From positions 1-64,000 of the forward strand of contig JAFQGT010000019.1 of the NCBI GenBank assembly GCA_017415425.1: a stretch of DNA of 64,000 nt. Direction: 5' to 3'. Positions 6,381 through 42,742 of this stretch are shown here, in pieces. Positions within the stretch are counted from its first letter, which is position 1, and each line of letters opens with the position of its first letter. A model generated the notes under the pieces. It ran no database searches. It saw nothing but the letters and a program-made list of their open reading frames with translations, and was not told the origin of the DNA. A program made the position numbers and the translations under genes. Origin of the DNA: Oscillospiraceae bacterium. Lineage in GTDB: Bacteria > Bacillota > Clostridia > Oscillospirales > Oscillospiraceae.

Positions 6381-6992
6381 TTACAGATCCTCCTCCAATA
6401 TCAGGGCTTTGAGGGCAGATATTTCGTATGCGGTTCTCTCTTGCGGACCGACTTCTGTGAGCTTGGTGTAGGTTCTGCTTTGCAGGCGGCCTTCGATGGC
6501 AATCACGTCGCTGGTGTTGCACGCAGACACCTGTTGCGCCACCCGCCCCCACAGAATACAGGGTAGATAATCGGCCCTGCGAAAGGCTCTGGGAACCGCC
6601 AGCATCGCATCGCAGATCTCCCGTCCCAACGGTGTCAGCCGATAAGTGGGTTTCCTGCAAAGGGGACCTTCCAGATAGACCTCGTTGATAGGTTCACCGT
6701 CCTCTGCGGTGATCGTGACCGCAAATACGAAAATCATCAAATGCCGCACGCCGTCAGTTTTGGAATTGTGAGAACGAATCTGACCATTGACGGTTAGCAT
6801 CTGCCCGCCGGAAAGATCCACAGAGTCGAGAATCCGATCTTCTGCGATCACCGGCAGAGTGTCCACAGTGCCGGAAAGACGGGGGACATCCAGCATAAAT
6901 CGGTAGAACCGTTTTCCGTGATTTTCGTGGGAAAATTCGGGAAGATTTTGCAGAGTACCCCGCAGTGTGATTCTGTTTGTTGTATGTTCCAT
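6381..6992 (-). CDS. Single-stranded DNA-binding protein with two OB folds
   Basis: 203 aa that split into two similar halves. Residues 1-95 start RITLRGTLQNLPEF and contain GQIRSHNS; residues 103-200 start NEVYLEGPLCRKPTYRLTPLG and contain CILWGRVAQQVS and IEGRLQSRTY, the strongest Ssb-like signature. This tandem architecture is known in clostridial Ssb-family proteins distinct from the essential SsbA. It lacks the acidic DDDIPF-type tip of SsbA, ending LILEEDL. SD GAGGTGG precedes ATG 6992. A GC-rich inverted repeat without a T tract lies just past the stop. It probably binds ssDNA in repair or recombination; the specific role is not readable. Confidence 0.8.
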   Translation of the reverse strand: MEHTTNRITLRGTLQNLPEFSHENHGKRFYRFMLDVPRLSGTVDTLPVIAEDRILDSVDLSGGQMLTVNGQIRSHNSKTDGVRHLMIFVFAVTITAEDGEPINEVYLEGPLCRKPTYRLTPLGREICDAMLAVPRAFRRADYLPCILWGRVAQQVSACNTSDVIAIEGRLQSRTYTKLTEVGPQERTAYEISALKALILEEDL

Positions 6993-37378: not shown

Positions 37379-40300
37379 ATGACACAACGGGTATTGTTCC
37401 TGAATATGTTCCCGGACTATGAGCCGCCTGAAACCCTGAAAGGGGTGCTTTCTCAGGCGGCCATTGTTGCTGCGGATATTGATCCGCAGAATCGTACCGT
37501 ATCTGTGGTGATCCACACCGGAACTTATATTCCCACCCGTCTGCTGTCTCAAATCTGCAAAGAAATCAGCCGGATTTACGGTCTGAGGCAGGTGAATTTG
37601 ACAGCTACTCATCCTGCCGATCAACTGCAACTGATCGAGCCGGAGGAACTGTTGGGCCTGTTTACGGCACAGAACTCTATGAGTCGGGGTTTGCTGGCAG
37701 GCGCAAATTGGGAATGGGAAGGAACTACCTTGCATATTCACCTAAAAGGTAACGGCAAGGATGAACTGCTCACGTGTGTTCCTGCTATTACCCAGCAGCT
37801 TAAGGAACGATTTGCTGTTTCTGTGACGGTGCAGATCCATCCCGGCGAGGTGCTGGAGGGCAAAGCACTTTACGATGCTATGTCCAAAATGCGCGATAGC
37901 GCCTTGGTTGAGCTGCCTCCGGTAACGGTGGCGGCTGCAAAAGAACAACAGACTCCGGATAACCCTGCCATTTACGGTAAAGCCTTTAAGGGAAAGGCCG
38001 TCCCTATGAAGGATCTGAATCTGGATATGGGCAGCGTGATCGTAGAGGGCCGTGTATTCAGTGTAGAGCATAAGGAACTGAAAAAGCGGAATGCCTGGGT
38101 CATCAATTTTGATATGACCGATCATTTCGGCTCTGTACGCATTAACCGCTTTATGGAGAATAATGAAGCAAAGCCGATTCTCGATGCTGTAAAAGTGGGC
38201 TCTGTACTAAAGGTACAGGGCAGATTCCAAATCAATCAGTTTGATAATGAAATGGTGCTCAAACCCAATGCCATTATGCACGGCACGATGGAAAAACGTA
38301 TGGACAGGGCAGAAGGAGAGAAGCGGGTTGAGCTTCATCTGCATACCATTATGTCCAATATGGACGCGTTGACGGATACCAAAGCTGCTATCAAACAGGC
38401 TGCAGCCTGGGGGCATAAGGCTATTGCCATTACCGATCACGGTTGTTGCCAGTCCTTTACGGATGCACTGCATACCCTTGAAGATTGGAAGGGTGCGCCC
38501 AAGGTGGCAGGCACTGATGAGACCATCAAGGTGCTTTACGGCTGCGAAGGTTACTATGTCAATGATGTGGATGACCGGATCGTGGTTCACGGAAACCGGG
38601 ATATTGACCTGCACGACGAATTTGTAGCTTTTGATCTGGAGACAACCGGTTTGTCCTCCAAGAAGGACCGGATCATCGAGATCGGTGCAGTCATTATGAA
38701 GGACGGCGTGGAGATCGACCGGTTCCAGACCTTTGTGGATCCTAAAATGAAGCTGCAACGGGAGACCGTTGAACTGACCGCCATTACCGACAGTATGCTG
38801 CTAGGAGCACCCTCGTTGGAGGAGGCTCTGCCGCAATTTTTGAAATTTGTGGGAGACCGGGTGCTGGTTGCGCACAATGCGGATTTTGATACCGGATTCA
38901 TTCGTGCAGCCTGTGAAAAACTGGGATATCCTTACAATTTTACCTCTGCAGATACCTTGATTTTGTCTCAAAATCTTATGCCCCACCTGAATCGGTTTAA
39001 GCTGGATGTGGTGGCAAATGCCCTCAGTCTTCCGGAATTTAACCACCATCGAGCGGCTGACGATGCGGTTACTTGCGGACTCATTATGGATAGACTCTTG
39101 CGAAAGCTTGAGGAAATGGATATACACAATCTGCAGGGGATCAATCCTGCGATGGAAGGGCTGCGGAGTCAAGGACGTATCGGAAATCGGCAGGCAAGAC
39201 ATATTATTCTGTTTGCGAAAAACCAGATGGGATTGCGAAATCTGTACCACCTGATCTCTATGTCCAATTTGGAGTACTTCAAACGTCAACCCCGGATGCC
39301 CAAATCGGAGATTATGAGGTTGCGGGAAGGCTTGCTGATCGGCTCCGCTTGCGAGGCTGGTGAGCTGTATCAGGCGGTGATTGATGGGAAAAACGAGGAT
39401 GAACTGAAGCGCATTGCATCTTTCTACGATTTTCTGGAGATTCAACCTCTTAGTAATAATGCCTTTATGCTGGCCAAGGGGATCGTCAGTGATCTGGAGG
39501 AAATCCGCCAGTTTAACCGTACCATTGTCCGATTGGGTGAAGAATTGGGAAAACCTGTTGTGGCAACCGGCGACGTCCACTTCCTGAATCCCGAGGATGA
39601 AATATTCCGTCGGATCCTGCTGGCAACCAAGGGGTTTGAGGATTGTGACAGACCGAATCCTTTGTATTTCAGAACCACCGATGAGATGCTGGAAGAATTC
39701 AGCTATCTGGGTAAGGAAAAGGCCTATGAGGTGGTTGTGACCAATCCCAATTATATTGCGGATATGTGCGATTTGATTCGCCCCGTACCCCACAGTCTGT
39801 TTGCGCCTAAGATCGAAAATTCTGTAGAGGATCTGAAGAGCCTTGTCTACGGAAAATTCCACCGTCTCTACGGAGACAATCCGCCGAAACTGTTTGTGGA
39901 TCGAGTGGAAACCGAGCTCAATGATATTATCACCTGTCATTATGATGTGATCTATATGTCTGCCCAGCGTTTGGTGCAAAATTCTTTGGAAAATGGCTAT
40001 CTGGTTGGCTCAAGAGGCTCTGTGGGATCTTCCATTGTGGCATTTATGTCAGGTATTACGGAGGTTAACTCTTTCCCACCCCACTACCGCTGCCCCAATC
40101 CTCAGTGCAAACATACCATTTTGGATGTACCGAAGGAATTTAATTGTGGTGCAGACCTTCCGGATATGCTGTGTCCTGTGTGCGGTACGCAGCTGGAGAA
40201 GGACGGCTTCAACATTCCTTTTGAAACCTTCCTAGGCTTTGGCGGTGACAAGGTACCGGATATTGATTTGAATTTCTCCGGTGAATACCAAGCAGAAGCC

Positions 40301-41692
40301 CACAAATACTGTATCTCTATGTTTGGTTCTTCTCACGTATTCCGGGCAGGTACCATCGGCACTGTGGCGGAGAAGACTGCCTACGGCTATGTAAAAAAGT
40401 ACCTGCAGGAGCGCAGTATGACTGCTTCTGGAGCAGAAATTAACCGCCTTGCAGCCGGATGTGTGGGTGTGCGCCGAACTACCGGTCAGCACCCCGGCGG
40501 TCTGGTGGTTATTCCGCAGGAGAATGAAATCTGGGACTTCTGCCCGGTACAGCACCCGGCTGACGATCCGAACTCCGACCAGGTCACTACCCACTTTGAA
40601 TACCACTCCATGGAAGAAAATCTCCTGAAGCTGGATATGCTGGGCCACGACGACCCCACTATGATCCGGATGATGGAGGATATGACCGGCGTGAATGCCA
40701 AGACCATTCCGTTGGATGACAAAGGAACAATGTCCTTATTTACCAGCTCTGAAATTCTGGGATATACGGATGATCAGATCCTTGGCCCTACCGGTGCGGT
40801 GGGTGTTCCGGAGTTCAATACCCGATTTACCCGGGGCGTGCTTCTGGATACCAAGCCTACCAAGTTTGACTTTCTGGTACGGATCTGTGGCTATACCCAC
40901 GGTACGGATGTGTGGCTGGGCAACGCCAAGGATCTGATCGTCTCCGGAACGGCTCAGGTGGATCAGACCATAGGTGCCCGTGACGATATTATGCTCTACC
41001 TGATCTCCTGCGGTATGCCGGAAAAGCGGGCGTTCAAGATTATGGAATCCGTCCGTAAAGGTAAAGGATTGCCCTCTGGAGCGGAGGAGGAGATGGTTGC
41101 GGCAGGCGTACCGGACTGGTATATCGGTTCTTGCAAGAAGATCAAATATCTGTTCCCCAAAGCCCACGCAGTTGCCTACTGTATGATGGCGTTCCGAATT
41201 GCGTGGTTTAAGGTCTACCATCCGCTGGCATTTTACGCGGCCTATTTCTACCGCCGAAGCCAAAAGGGCGGCTTTGATGCCAATCTGATGACCGGCGGTA
41301 TGGATGCGGTTGTTGCCAATATCAAGGCAATTGAGGATAATGAGGATGCTACCAACAAAGATGAAGATCTGTTGATCACTTTGGAGGTGGCCTACGAGTA
41401 CTATCTGCGTGGCTTTGAGTTTTTGCCCATCAATATCTACGAAAGCCACGCCACGAAATTCCTGATCAAGGACGGGAAGATCCTGCCGCCCTTTGTGGCG
41501 ATTTCCGGTCTGGGCGAAAGTGCCGCGTGGGATCTGATGAATGGCAGAGAAGGGAAAACATTCCTGTCTATTGAGGAGATCGCAGCAGCCTGTCCCAAGG
41601 TCTCCAAGACCCATATGCAGATGCTGAAAGAGGCAGGTGCCTTTGGAGATCTGCCGGATACCAGCCAGGTGAATCTCTTTGACAGCTTTTAG
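37379..41692 (+). CDS. polC: DNA polymerase III alpha subunit, PolC type
   Basis: 1437-aa Gram-positive replicative polymerase with built-in proofreading. Order: N-terminal domain, OB fold (about 225-305), PHP domain (ELHLHTIMSNMDALTD, about 318-410), DEDDh exonuclease inserted into it (FVAFDLETTG from about 414 to 575), PHP remainder, Zn-binding cysteines (about 904-940: CPNPQC, CPVCGTQ), catalytic palm PDIDLNFSGEYQ (about 960), fingers and C-terminal clamp-binding-like NLFDSF. Last gene of the operon. Its TAG stop coincides with the first bases of the inverted-repeat element that follows. Confidence 0.97.
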   Translation: MTQRVLFLNMFPDYEPPETLKGVLSQAAIVAADIDPQNRTVSVVIHTGTYIPTRLLSQICKEISRIYGLRQVNLTATHPADQLQLIEPEELLGLFTAQNSMSRGLLAGANWEWEGTTLHIHLKGNGKDELLTCVPAITQQLKERFAVSVTVQIHPGEVLEGKALYDAMSKMRDSALVELPPVTVAAAKEQQTPDNPAIYGKAFKGKAVPMKDLNLDMGSVIVEGRVFSVEHKELKKRNAWVINFDMTDHFGSVRINRFMENNEAKPILDAVKVGSVLKVQGRFQINQFDNEMVLKPNAIMHGTMEKRMDRAEGEKRVELHLHTIMSNMDALTDTKAAIKQAAAWGHKAIAITDHGCCQSFTDALHTLEDWKGAPKVAGTDETIKVLYGCEGYYVNDVDDRIVVHGNRDIDLHDEFVAFDLETTGLSSKKDRIIEIGAVIMKDGVEIDRFQTFVDPKMKLQRETVELTAITDSMLLGAPSLEEALPQFLKFVGDRVLVAHNADFDTGFIRAACEKLGYPYNFTSADTLILSQNLMPHLNRFKLDVVANALSLPEFNHHRAADDAVTCGLIMDRLLRKLEEMDIHNLQGINPAMEGLRSQGRIGNRQARHIILFAKNQMGLRNLYHLISMSNLEYFKRQPRMPKSEIMRLREGLLIGSACEAGELYQAVIDGKNEDELKRIASFYDFLEIQPLSNNAFMLAKGIVSDLEEIRQFNRTIVRLGEELGKPVVATGDVHFLNPEDEIFRRILLATKGFEDCDRPNPLYFRTTDEMLEEFSYLGKEKAYEVVVTNPNYIADMCDLIRPVPHSLFAPKIENSVEDLKSLVYGKFHRLYGDNPPKLFVDRVETELNDIITCHYDVIYMSAQRLVQNSLENGYLVGSRGSVGSSIVAFMSGITEVNSFPPHYRCPNPQCKHTILDVPKEFNCGADLPDMLCPVCGTQLEKDGFNIPFETFLGFGGDKVPDIDLNFSGEYQAEAHKYCISMFGSSHVFRAGTIGTVAEKTAYGYVKKYLQERSMTASGAEINRLAAGCVGVRRTTGQHPGGLVVIPQENEIWDFCPVQHPADDPNSDQVTTHFEYHSMEENLLKLDMLGHDDPTMIRMMEDMTGVNAKTIPLDDKGTMSLFTSSEILGYTDDQILGPTGAVGVPEFNTRFTRGVLLDTKPTKFDFLVRICGYTHGTDVWLGNAKDLIVSGTAQVDQTIGARDDIMLYLISCGMPEKRAFKIMESVRKGKGLPSGAEEEMVAAGVPDWYIGSCKKIKYLFPKAHAVAYCMMAFRIAWFKVYHPLAFYAAYFYRRSQKGGFDANLMTGGMDAVVANIKAIEDNEDATNKDEDLLITLEVAYEYYLRGFEFLPINIYESHATKFLIKDGKILPPFVAISGLGESAAWDLMNGREGKTFLSIEEIAAACPKVSKTHMQMLKEAGAFGDLPDTSQVNLFDSF

Positions 41693-41964
41693 CCTGAGCA
41701 ATATAATCCGAACCCGTTTCTGAACAGCGGGGTCGCCCCGATGCATCGTTGTCGCTTCTTGAAGGGCACAAAGCCCGTCTGCAAAGCGACGCCTCGCCTC
41801 AAACTGACCGCACAGTTCAGAAATCTTCGACCTGAGGGGGATGGATGATGGGATCAGGCGATCTTATATGAAGCAGATGGGCTGTGACGCCCATCAATGA
41901 ATAAAAGGAAGTTTGAGCCAATCAGACGCCCACTCAGGCGTGTTCTGATTATATTGCTCAGGCT
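41691..41964 (+). mobile_element. 274-bp MITE-like or structured-RNA element with 23-bp terminal inverted repeats
   Basis: Ends 41691-41713 and 41942-41964 are inverted repeats matching at 22 of 23 positions. Inside lie nested complementary pairs: TTTCTGAAC 41717 with GTTCAGAAA 41815; CGGGG-TCG-CCCCG 41728-41740; GTCGCTT 41751 with AAGCGAC 41784 around GGGC/GCCC; CCTGA 41831 with TCAGG 41854; GATGGGC 41876 with GCCCATC 41889; ACGCC 41926 with GGCGT 41937; and a long-range CTCAAACT 41798 / AGTTTGAG 41910. No transposase. A 19-codon ORF (41843-41900) is probably fortuitous. Either a non-autonomous transposable element or a folded ncRNA/leader in the polC-udp transcript. I recognise no known RNA family. 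Confidence 0.7.
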
Positions 41965-41977
41965 AAGGAGGATTACT

Positions 41978-42742
41978 ATGCAAGATATCGGAATGCAATT
42001 CCACATTCATTGCAAGGAAGGGGATGTGGGCAAGTATTGCTTTTTGCCCGGTGATCCCGGTCGGTGTGAGGCAATCGCCGCCCACTTTGATGACCCTGTT
42101 CACATCGGATCAAATCGGGAGTACAACATCTATACCGGTACTTTGTTGGGGGAGAAGGTGTCCGTCTGCTCCACCGGCATCGGCGGACCCTCTGCATCCA
42201 TTGCGATGGAGGAGCTGGCAGCGATCGGGGTGCATACTTTTATCCGCATCGGCACTTGCGGTGGTATCGCGATGGATGTACTGCCTGGGGATGTGGTGGT
42301 GGCTACTGGTGCGATCCGGTACGAACACACGTCCTTGGAATATGCGCCGATTGAGTTTCCTGCTGTGCCGGACTTCACAGTTGCTGCTGCGCTGAAGGAT
42401 GCCAGTGAGAATTTAGGGTATCGTACCCACGTGGGCGTTGTCCAATGCAAAGATTCTTTCTATGGACAGCATTCACCCGAAAAAAGCCCTGTGTACTATG
42501 ATCTGCTGCAAAAGTGGGAAAGCTGGAAACGCCTGGGCGTGAAGGCCAGTGAGATGGAGTCGGCGGCCCTGTTTGTGGTGGCGGCGGCTCTGGGTGTCCG
42601 TTGCGGCAGCTGCTTCCACGCTGTGTGGAATCAAGAGCGGGAAAAAGCGGGTCTTGCGATGCCGATGACCGAGGACACCACCGGTGCCATTCGGGTGGGC
42701 GTTGAGGCTATGAAGCGCCTGATTTCTGCAGACAAGCATTAA
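41978..42742 (+). CDS. udp: Uridine phosphorylase-like nucleoside phosphorylase
   Basis: 254-aa NP-I family enzyme: [16 protein letters not shown] (phosphate loop), [29 protein letters not shown], and the nucleoside-binding EMESAALF. The pattern fits Udp (uridine to uracil plus ribose-1-phosphate) better than DeoD. ATG 41978 sits behind AAGGAGG, which begins right after the inverted-repeat element; an in-frame ATG at 41897 would start inside the element and lacks homology. Followed 14 bases later by a flavoprotein gene. Confidence 0.88.

Follow-up and report, generated by a model that had tools for sequence, protein, structure and literature searches.

The locus between polC and a phosphorylase gene of a gut bacterium of the Oscillospiraceae raises the question of what a short repeat with near-perfect inverted ends and a heavily structured interior is doing at this position. 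An earlier note, made from the sequence alone, had offered two readings as alternatives, a MITE-like non-autonomous element or a compact noncoding RNA or leader with a long closing helix. Here, we argue that the element is probably a full-length non-autonomous MITE in which a conserved single-strand module is present twice, in inverted orientation. The proposed readings were supported and do not exclude each other, the element being mobile and covarying at once.

The element and its insertion site

Within the window, the 64,000-nucleotide stretch analyzed here, a 274-bp repeat occupies positions 41691 to 41964 (Table 1). Its terminal arms are 26 bp each, or 28 nt when the flanking bases are counted (41689 to 41716 and 41939 to 41966, 93% complementary), and a second inverted pair (41717 to 41734 and 41806 to 41823) is nested inside. 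The terminal 23 bp with one mismatch described in the earlier note could be read by eye, and its placement of the two ends also held: the TAG stop codon of polC lies at 41690 to 41692, with the left repeat supplying the AG, and AAGGAGG, the Shine-Dalgarno (SD) sequence of the phosphorylase gene, directly adjoins the right end. No open reading frame of at least 80 amino acids lies wholly within the 274 bp, and hence there is no transposase gene inside the element.

Table 1. Features of the element and its neighbors, in window positions
Feature	Position	Strand	Remarks
polC, upstream neighbor	37379..41692	+	PolC by Pfam; stop codon is the insertion site
Predicted sigma-70-like promoter, TTGACA-17-TATAAT	41679..41707	+	12/12; -35 box within the polC end, -10 box within the left repeat
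Left terminal inverted repeat, AGCCTGAGCAATATAATCCGAACCCG	41691..41716	.	Contributes AG to the TAG stop of polC, and a TATAAT
Arm 1, hairpin module	41717..41823	-	Selected strand minus; second inverted repeat, wobble counts, weak R2 match
Arm 1 inner hairpin, GAAGGGC / GCCCGTC, loop ACAAA	41761..41779	-	
Arm 2, hairpin module	41831..41938	+	Selected strand plus; consensus fold, R2 match
Arm 2 inner hairpin, GATGGGC / GCCCATC	41876..41895	+	GCA before, AA after; same loop in class B
Right terminal inverted repeat	41939..41964	.	Inverted match to the left end
Shine-Dalgarno sequence, AAGGAGG	41965..41971	+	Abuts the right end
PNP_UDP_1 phosphorylase gene, downstream neighbor	41978..42742	+	Pfam; ATG at 41978

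The same junction can be compared in relatives. In genome G082, the sequence between polC and the phosphorylase gene reads GACAGTTTTTAAGGAGG, and the window reads GACAGCTTTT, then the 274 bp, and then AAGGAGG; the G082 junction is the same sequence minus exactly 274 bp, and genomes G105 and G104 are also without the element at this place. By this comparison, the 274 bp were inserted into the TAA stop codon of polC, right before the phosphorylase SD. Furthermore, the element is not confined to one place or one genome. The host genome (41 contigs, 1.73 Mb) contains a second full copy that is 97% identical and two partial copies, and BLAST detected the element in 6 of 60 genomes, its own genome counted. 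Model R1, built from 14 full copies, matched 32 of the 136 genomes of the genus, with matches of the type of the window element (class A) in 19, of a second type (class B) in 14, and of both in 1; this split is a reading of the match listing, and two of the class B genomes, G130 and G148, were counted from model matches alone. The terminal inverted repeat (TIR) pattern was found in 10 of 300 genomes of the family, the own genome again counted, and R1, run on five of the nine others, matched all five, with G277 and G402 giving weaker matches only. Because the element is multicopy by BLAST and R1 and a relative has the same site without it, the MITE-like reading is upheld.

The flanks of the element vary from copy to copy by eye, and a special tie to nucleoside or replication genes, which had also been considered, is thus unsupported. 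Among 30 loci read, a polC-like end lies beside a phosphorylase gene in 13, namely, the window, 11 further loci with a short gap, and G004 with a longer one. The copy L011 (G033) interrupts a reading frame, of PHP type by eye, between T and A, and the ends of class A are flanked by T and A in 40 of 53 sites, which is compatible with either a TA duplication or insertion at T^A without duplication. The polC site is occupied in two genomes, by the window copy L001 in G000 and by L015 in G017. These copies are 79% identical to each other, with the last 600 bp of polC being 77% and the start of the phosphorylase gene 70% identical; L001 shares 97% identity with the other copy in its own genome, and L015 shares 92% with L047 and 90% with a copy in its own genome. 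Because L001 and L015 match other copies better than each other, two insertions at a hot spot, or homogenization, would seem likelier than simple inheritance of the polC insertion, although neither is proven. At another site, shared by G094 and G104 (L066 and L067), a 274-bp copy in one genome is faced by a 166-bp copy in the other, with arm 1 missing by eye.

A predicted promoter spans the left end of the window copy (Table 1). The match was created by the insertion, and since 1 site was found versus 0.5 expected from shuffles, it is by count not above chance. In L162, as in the window copy, the -35 box also matches at 6/6 positions at the right spacing. A general promoter role of class A was rejected, as a -35 next to the left repeat shows no enrichment across 53 sites (2.45 matches versus 2.42 at control spacings), and at the right end, the same 53 sites gave 2.36 matches for a -35, versus 2.50 for the control.

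The hairpin module and its selected strand

The 156-bp MITEs of class B are each filled by a single hairpin module, about 105 nt long, and model R2 was built from 18 of these MITEs. In the class A copy L009, R2 matched the plus strand at 1638 to 1748 (E 5e-10) and the minus strand at 1526 to 1635 (E 7e-7); the window copy L001 was unlisted in the same search at 1e-6. In the window, the match on the plus strand extends from 41817 to 41948 (38.0 bits, E 6e-7 over the whole window), and arm 1 is matched weakly on the minus strand at 41716 to 41825 (14.8 bits, E 0.0028) when 1 kb was searched unfiltered, with no match to arm 1 in the whole-window search at E 0.5. Because R2 matches both strands in L009 and in the window, class A contains two inverted copies of the module between its terminal repeats, the first being only weakly recognized in the window copy.

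The module comprises an outer stem, an internal loop, a GCA/AA loop, and a closing hairpin, and the internal loop is made up of tandem G-A steps and single covarying Watson-Crick pairs at every third position. Among 56 wider copies, the tandem G-A pattern is present on both loop strands in 28, on one strand in 11, and on neither in 17, and because of these 17, the steps are better described as frequent than as universal. A K-turn was ruled out because the loop is 3 by 2, and SRP RNA was considered as a possible source of the module, given a putative 14-nt likeness. In the family, where up to 7 candidates per genome were scored, R2 matched 95 of 400 genomes, which represent 48 of 106 genera; in the class, it matched 43 of 391 genomes (27 of 223 genera), the weaker of these matches being putative. 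The interior of the elements appears to be better conserved than the ends.

The fold of the module is under selection. As a single sequence, the element folds at -124.1 kcal/mol with RNA parameters (z -7.7) and at -64.7 with DNA parameters (z -7.5), and in neither case were any of 200 shuffles as stable. In 14 aligned class A copies, 94.4% of the pair cells are standard, compared with 85.0% after shuffling and at most 39.7% with slid partners, the structure having been derived from those 14 sequences and thus being favored over its slid versions. Two-sided changes were seen in 38 of 86 pairs, against a shuffled mean of 19.8, and none of 500 shuffles was as high. The single-module set of 89 rows includes opposite-strand matches and is aligned by fitting to the model, which leans toward the structure; 93.0% of its cells are paired (shuffled, 63.6%; slid, at most 45.0%), and two-sided changes occur in 58 of 58 pairs. 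The covariation check that the earlier note had proposed therefore came out above the shuffled and slid controls, and the structured interior with a long closing helix that it had described is a covarying, strand-specific fold, with the strand being RNA or single-stranded DNA (ssDNA).

Strand specificity was read from wobble pairs. When a transition changes one partner of a pair, the result reads as G-T on one strand but as A-C on the other, and the ratio of the two hence shows which strand must fold; all counts were made with G-U forbidden at the folding step. In 51 class A copies read on the plus strand, the G-T:A-C counts are 17:87 for arm 1, 49:24 for arm 2, and 36:43 for the terminal stem, or, by column, 2:19 (P = 2e-4), 13:5 (P = 0.10), and 8:8. 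These 51 were aligned out of 57 copies, 3 having been removed as near-duplicates and another 3 for an odd length or other ends, and partial copies were left out; 53 rows were used for the end bases and 54 sites for orientation. In 17 distinct class B copies, the stem gave 17:2 and the inner core 4:5, the latter having no strand bias (the core pattern used to collect the copies missed 11 of 43, and the 32 that it caught included 17 distinct ones). Single-module copies of less than 85% identity (n = 56) gave 194:32, or 37:5 by column, and when their complement was folded independently, the counts turned to 47:195. By division of these counts, G-T outnumbers A-C severalfold, and A-C is per type no commoner than other mismatches. 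Related copies do not contribute independent cells, and the P values therefore overstate the strength of the wobble counts; a stronger argument is that the two arms have opposite signs and the stem is balanced, with arm 2 and the class B core being modest or silent on their own. Because its wobble pairs are strand biased, the module can be taken to act as a folded single strand, of either RNA or ssDNA.

Ends, target duplications, and partner transposases

Class A ends have the form AGCCTGAG, and full copies are 268 to 277 bp long, with two further copies of 237 and 242 bp. Class B was sampled by reading 43 of about 58 listed places; 40 of the 43 copies are 156 to 157 bp long, and 36 have a 3-bp TNA duplication. 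The class B TIR, TACTAA..., resembles the TIR of IS630-like DDE_3 elements, about 1.1 kb long, that occur in this genus. TA is the usual target duplication of the IS630 family. TNA matches on both sides at three of the seven IS630-like loci (L135, L137, and L142, two of which are copies in one genome), and the remaining loci are cut by contig ends or do not match. DDE_3 is present in 7 of 14 class B genomes versus 2 of 122 others of the genus (Fisher P = 8e-7). Class A could not be assigned as an IS630-type MITE: neither the 19 class A genomes of the genus nor the 3 from other genera yielded DDE_3, many of these genomes being incomplete MAGs. The module is absent from all 12 DDE_3 loci searched, and the DDE_3 transposase therefore does not need it.

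The wider copies (n = 72) extend the range of ends. Copies with TAC ends have TNA in 31 of 50 cases, those with TACTCCACC or TGGTGCA ends have CTAG in 4 of 5, those with TAGT ends have TA in 5 of 5, and those with GAGC ends have TA in 2 of 3; 9 others are ungrouped. Since the ends and the duplication length differ between the groups, we infer that they use different transposases, partner elements having been seen for the TNA group only.

Further arrangements were observed. In L068 and L069, one site in two genomes, a class A interior stands between other ends, GGGTAGAGC...GCTCTACCC, with TA flanks. A short hairpin of the class A end motif (AATAATCCGAAC..CG) occurs in L192 at about 2229 to 2283, where it directly adjoins a tRNA-Leu gene, and in L113 and L122 at about 1462 to 1522. 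Stray TIR matches were found in nine regions, and the eight that were scanned for a second end gave only cut, very short, decayed, or chance cases. Plasmids queried with one wider copy and phages queried with the window element gave no match. An exact-pattern search of IMG/VR returned a contig (L287, about 6730 to 6890) with a module-bearing repeat that has TGGTGCATCC ends and CTAG flanks.

Among known systems, RUP of Streptococcus pneumoniae, an IS630-type MITE with IS630-Spn1 as its transposase partner, is similar in being short and non-autonomous, in having TIRs in common with an IS630-type transposase (here, for class B), and in having no transposase gene of its own (PMC2229807). However, class B has the 3-bp TNA, the conserved strand-specific module occurs also with other ends, and no DDE_3 was found in the class A genomes searched. 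Stable structured transcripts have been described for Caulobacter intergenic repeats (CIR), ERIC, and Correia/NEMIS, with two arms in CIR, an orientation that matters for ERIC, and processing of Correia and ERIC transcripts by RNase (PMC2229807, PMC10969869); in contrast to these, a single module makes up both arms here, in inverted orientation, and the strand signatures of the arms are opposite. MRSC-65-2, a mobile/repeat sequence candidate described in the published text as one long stem with a UYCCGG repeat, is likewise multicopy, with a covarying stem, and possibly functional as DNA (PMC11109978). On the listed strand, the corresponding TYCCGG is present in 1 of 57 copies of class A, in 8 of 43 of class B, and in 4 among the first 70 rows of the wider set of 89, and its complement is found in 6, 32, and 20 rows of the same sets, respectively; with 8 listed-strand and 32 complement cases among the 43, a site of this kind is present in most copies of class B. 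The same source covers 250 candidates, one of which may overlap the module (PMC11109978). IStrons similarly join one RNA module to more than one family of transposon ends (PMC4227781), but the module is about 105 nt long, and an IStron identity was rejected, as Rfam gave no match to a group I intron core. In REPINs, two inverted hairpin units are combined in one mobile repeat, unlike which the element has TIRs and DDE-type target duplications. No published description of this repeat family was found among the titles, openings of abstracts, and passages searched.

RNA or single-stranded DNA

Something about the fold is probably useful, since it is kept by evolution and is common to small mobile repeats with quite different ends. 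In the mechanism that we propose, the ends of class B would be moved in trans by an IS630-like insertion-sequence transposase and those of class A by an insertion-sequence transposase, and the module would work as a folded strand. Our first choice, held tentatively, is that the module may be an RNA made by read-through transcription and recognized or processed by a host protein, with the result that insertions at transcribed sites close to a start are tolerated. RNA is placed first because A-C is per type as rare as other mismatches and G-T is tolerated. The RNA reading is weakened by the lack of orientation bias of single-module copies and by the module alignments, in which no conserved promoter was seen by eye.

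The gene context bears on this choice. Start sites were called with a rule of at least 5 of 6 SD matches, a start within 30 nt, and an open reading frame of at least 80 amino acids. By this rule, a start adjoins only the right end at 23 of the 54 class A sites, only the left end at 3, and neither end at 28 (P = 9e-5), with two pairs among the 23 being the same place in two genomes (L001/L015 and L039/L041); the 42 class B sites have 2, 2, and 38, respectively. Gene directions left and right of the module strand, called crudely from long open frames, are ++ in 16, -- in 6, -+ in 18, and +- in 4 class A cases (44 of 53 callable), 9, 6, 14, and 3 for class B (32 of 43), and 12, 13, 17, and 7 for the wider single-module copies (49 of 72). 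With an orientation bias in class A only, a purely cis-acting transcript role would leave the single-module copies unexplained.

Folded hairpins are recognized by transposases or a host factor in IS200/IS605 and REP systems. That the module similarly works as ssDNA, with the strand folding at the replication fork or upon excision and being recognized by transposases or a host factor, is a rather unlikely but serious second choice, ranked next to RNA because single-module copies ignore gene direction (12:13) and yet pair in a strand-specific manner. The DNA-parameter fold, far below its shuffles (z -7.5), and the occurrence of the module with several end and duplication types agree with ssDNA. 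However, an excess of G-T over A-C of severalfold, with A-C no commoner than other mismatches, is more usual for RNA, the target duplications suggest DDE enzymes, which act on double strands, the DDE_3 loci are without the module (0/12), and class A has an orientation bias toward start sites.

We consider it improbable that the element is a cis-regulatory leader or riboswitch-like RNA that is repeated by chance. Class A does covary and lies directly before an SD and start, mostly in one orientation (23:3), but its flanks vary from copy to copy, a relative has the site without the element, the L011 copy interrupts the PHP-type frame (by eye), and single-module copies have no orientation bias. 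Consistent with the earlier statement that no known riboswitch, T-box, intron, or leader motif is recognizable, Rfam gave no match in the window stretch even at E 1 and none in 10 class A or 20 wider loci; a sub-threshold snoRNA match for one class B copy (17.8 bits versus a gathering threshold of 70) was rejected. Least probable of all and strongly disfavored is an ordinary MITE whose fold is a by-product of terminal repeats and palindrome correction and whose interior has no job, for although long stem-loop transcripts are usual in bacterial MITEs (PMC2229807, PMC10969869), palindrome correction would erase the conserved internal loops (tandem G-A steps and GCA/AA) and gives no opposite strand biases in two arms, and the class A TIR stem, a built-in control, is balanced (36:43).

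Taken beyond the window, the module may be a mobile single strand, RNA or ssDNA, that became joined to several unrelated transposon ends across Clostridia and spreads itself, a wider reading that we advance with more hesitation than the choice of RNA. With equal hesitation, it could be seen as a parasite or partner of many transposases, present singly or as an inverted double and recognizable by its fold, its frequent G-A steps, and its GCA/AA loop. Bacterial MITEs have mostly been treated as passive deletion relics of insertion sequences. Since the interior of this element seems to be more conserved than its ends, is under selection on one strand, and is common to copies with different target duplications, it provides a testable case of small transposons carrying a working RNA or ssDNA part. 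In addition, the active strand of any palindromic mobile repeat can be identified simply by counting G-T versus A-C for each arm, and with R2 matching 95 of 400 family genomes and 43 of 391 genomes across the class, the module affects genome annotation and searches for RNA leaders.
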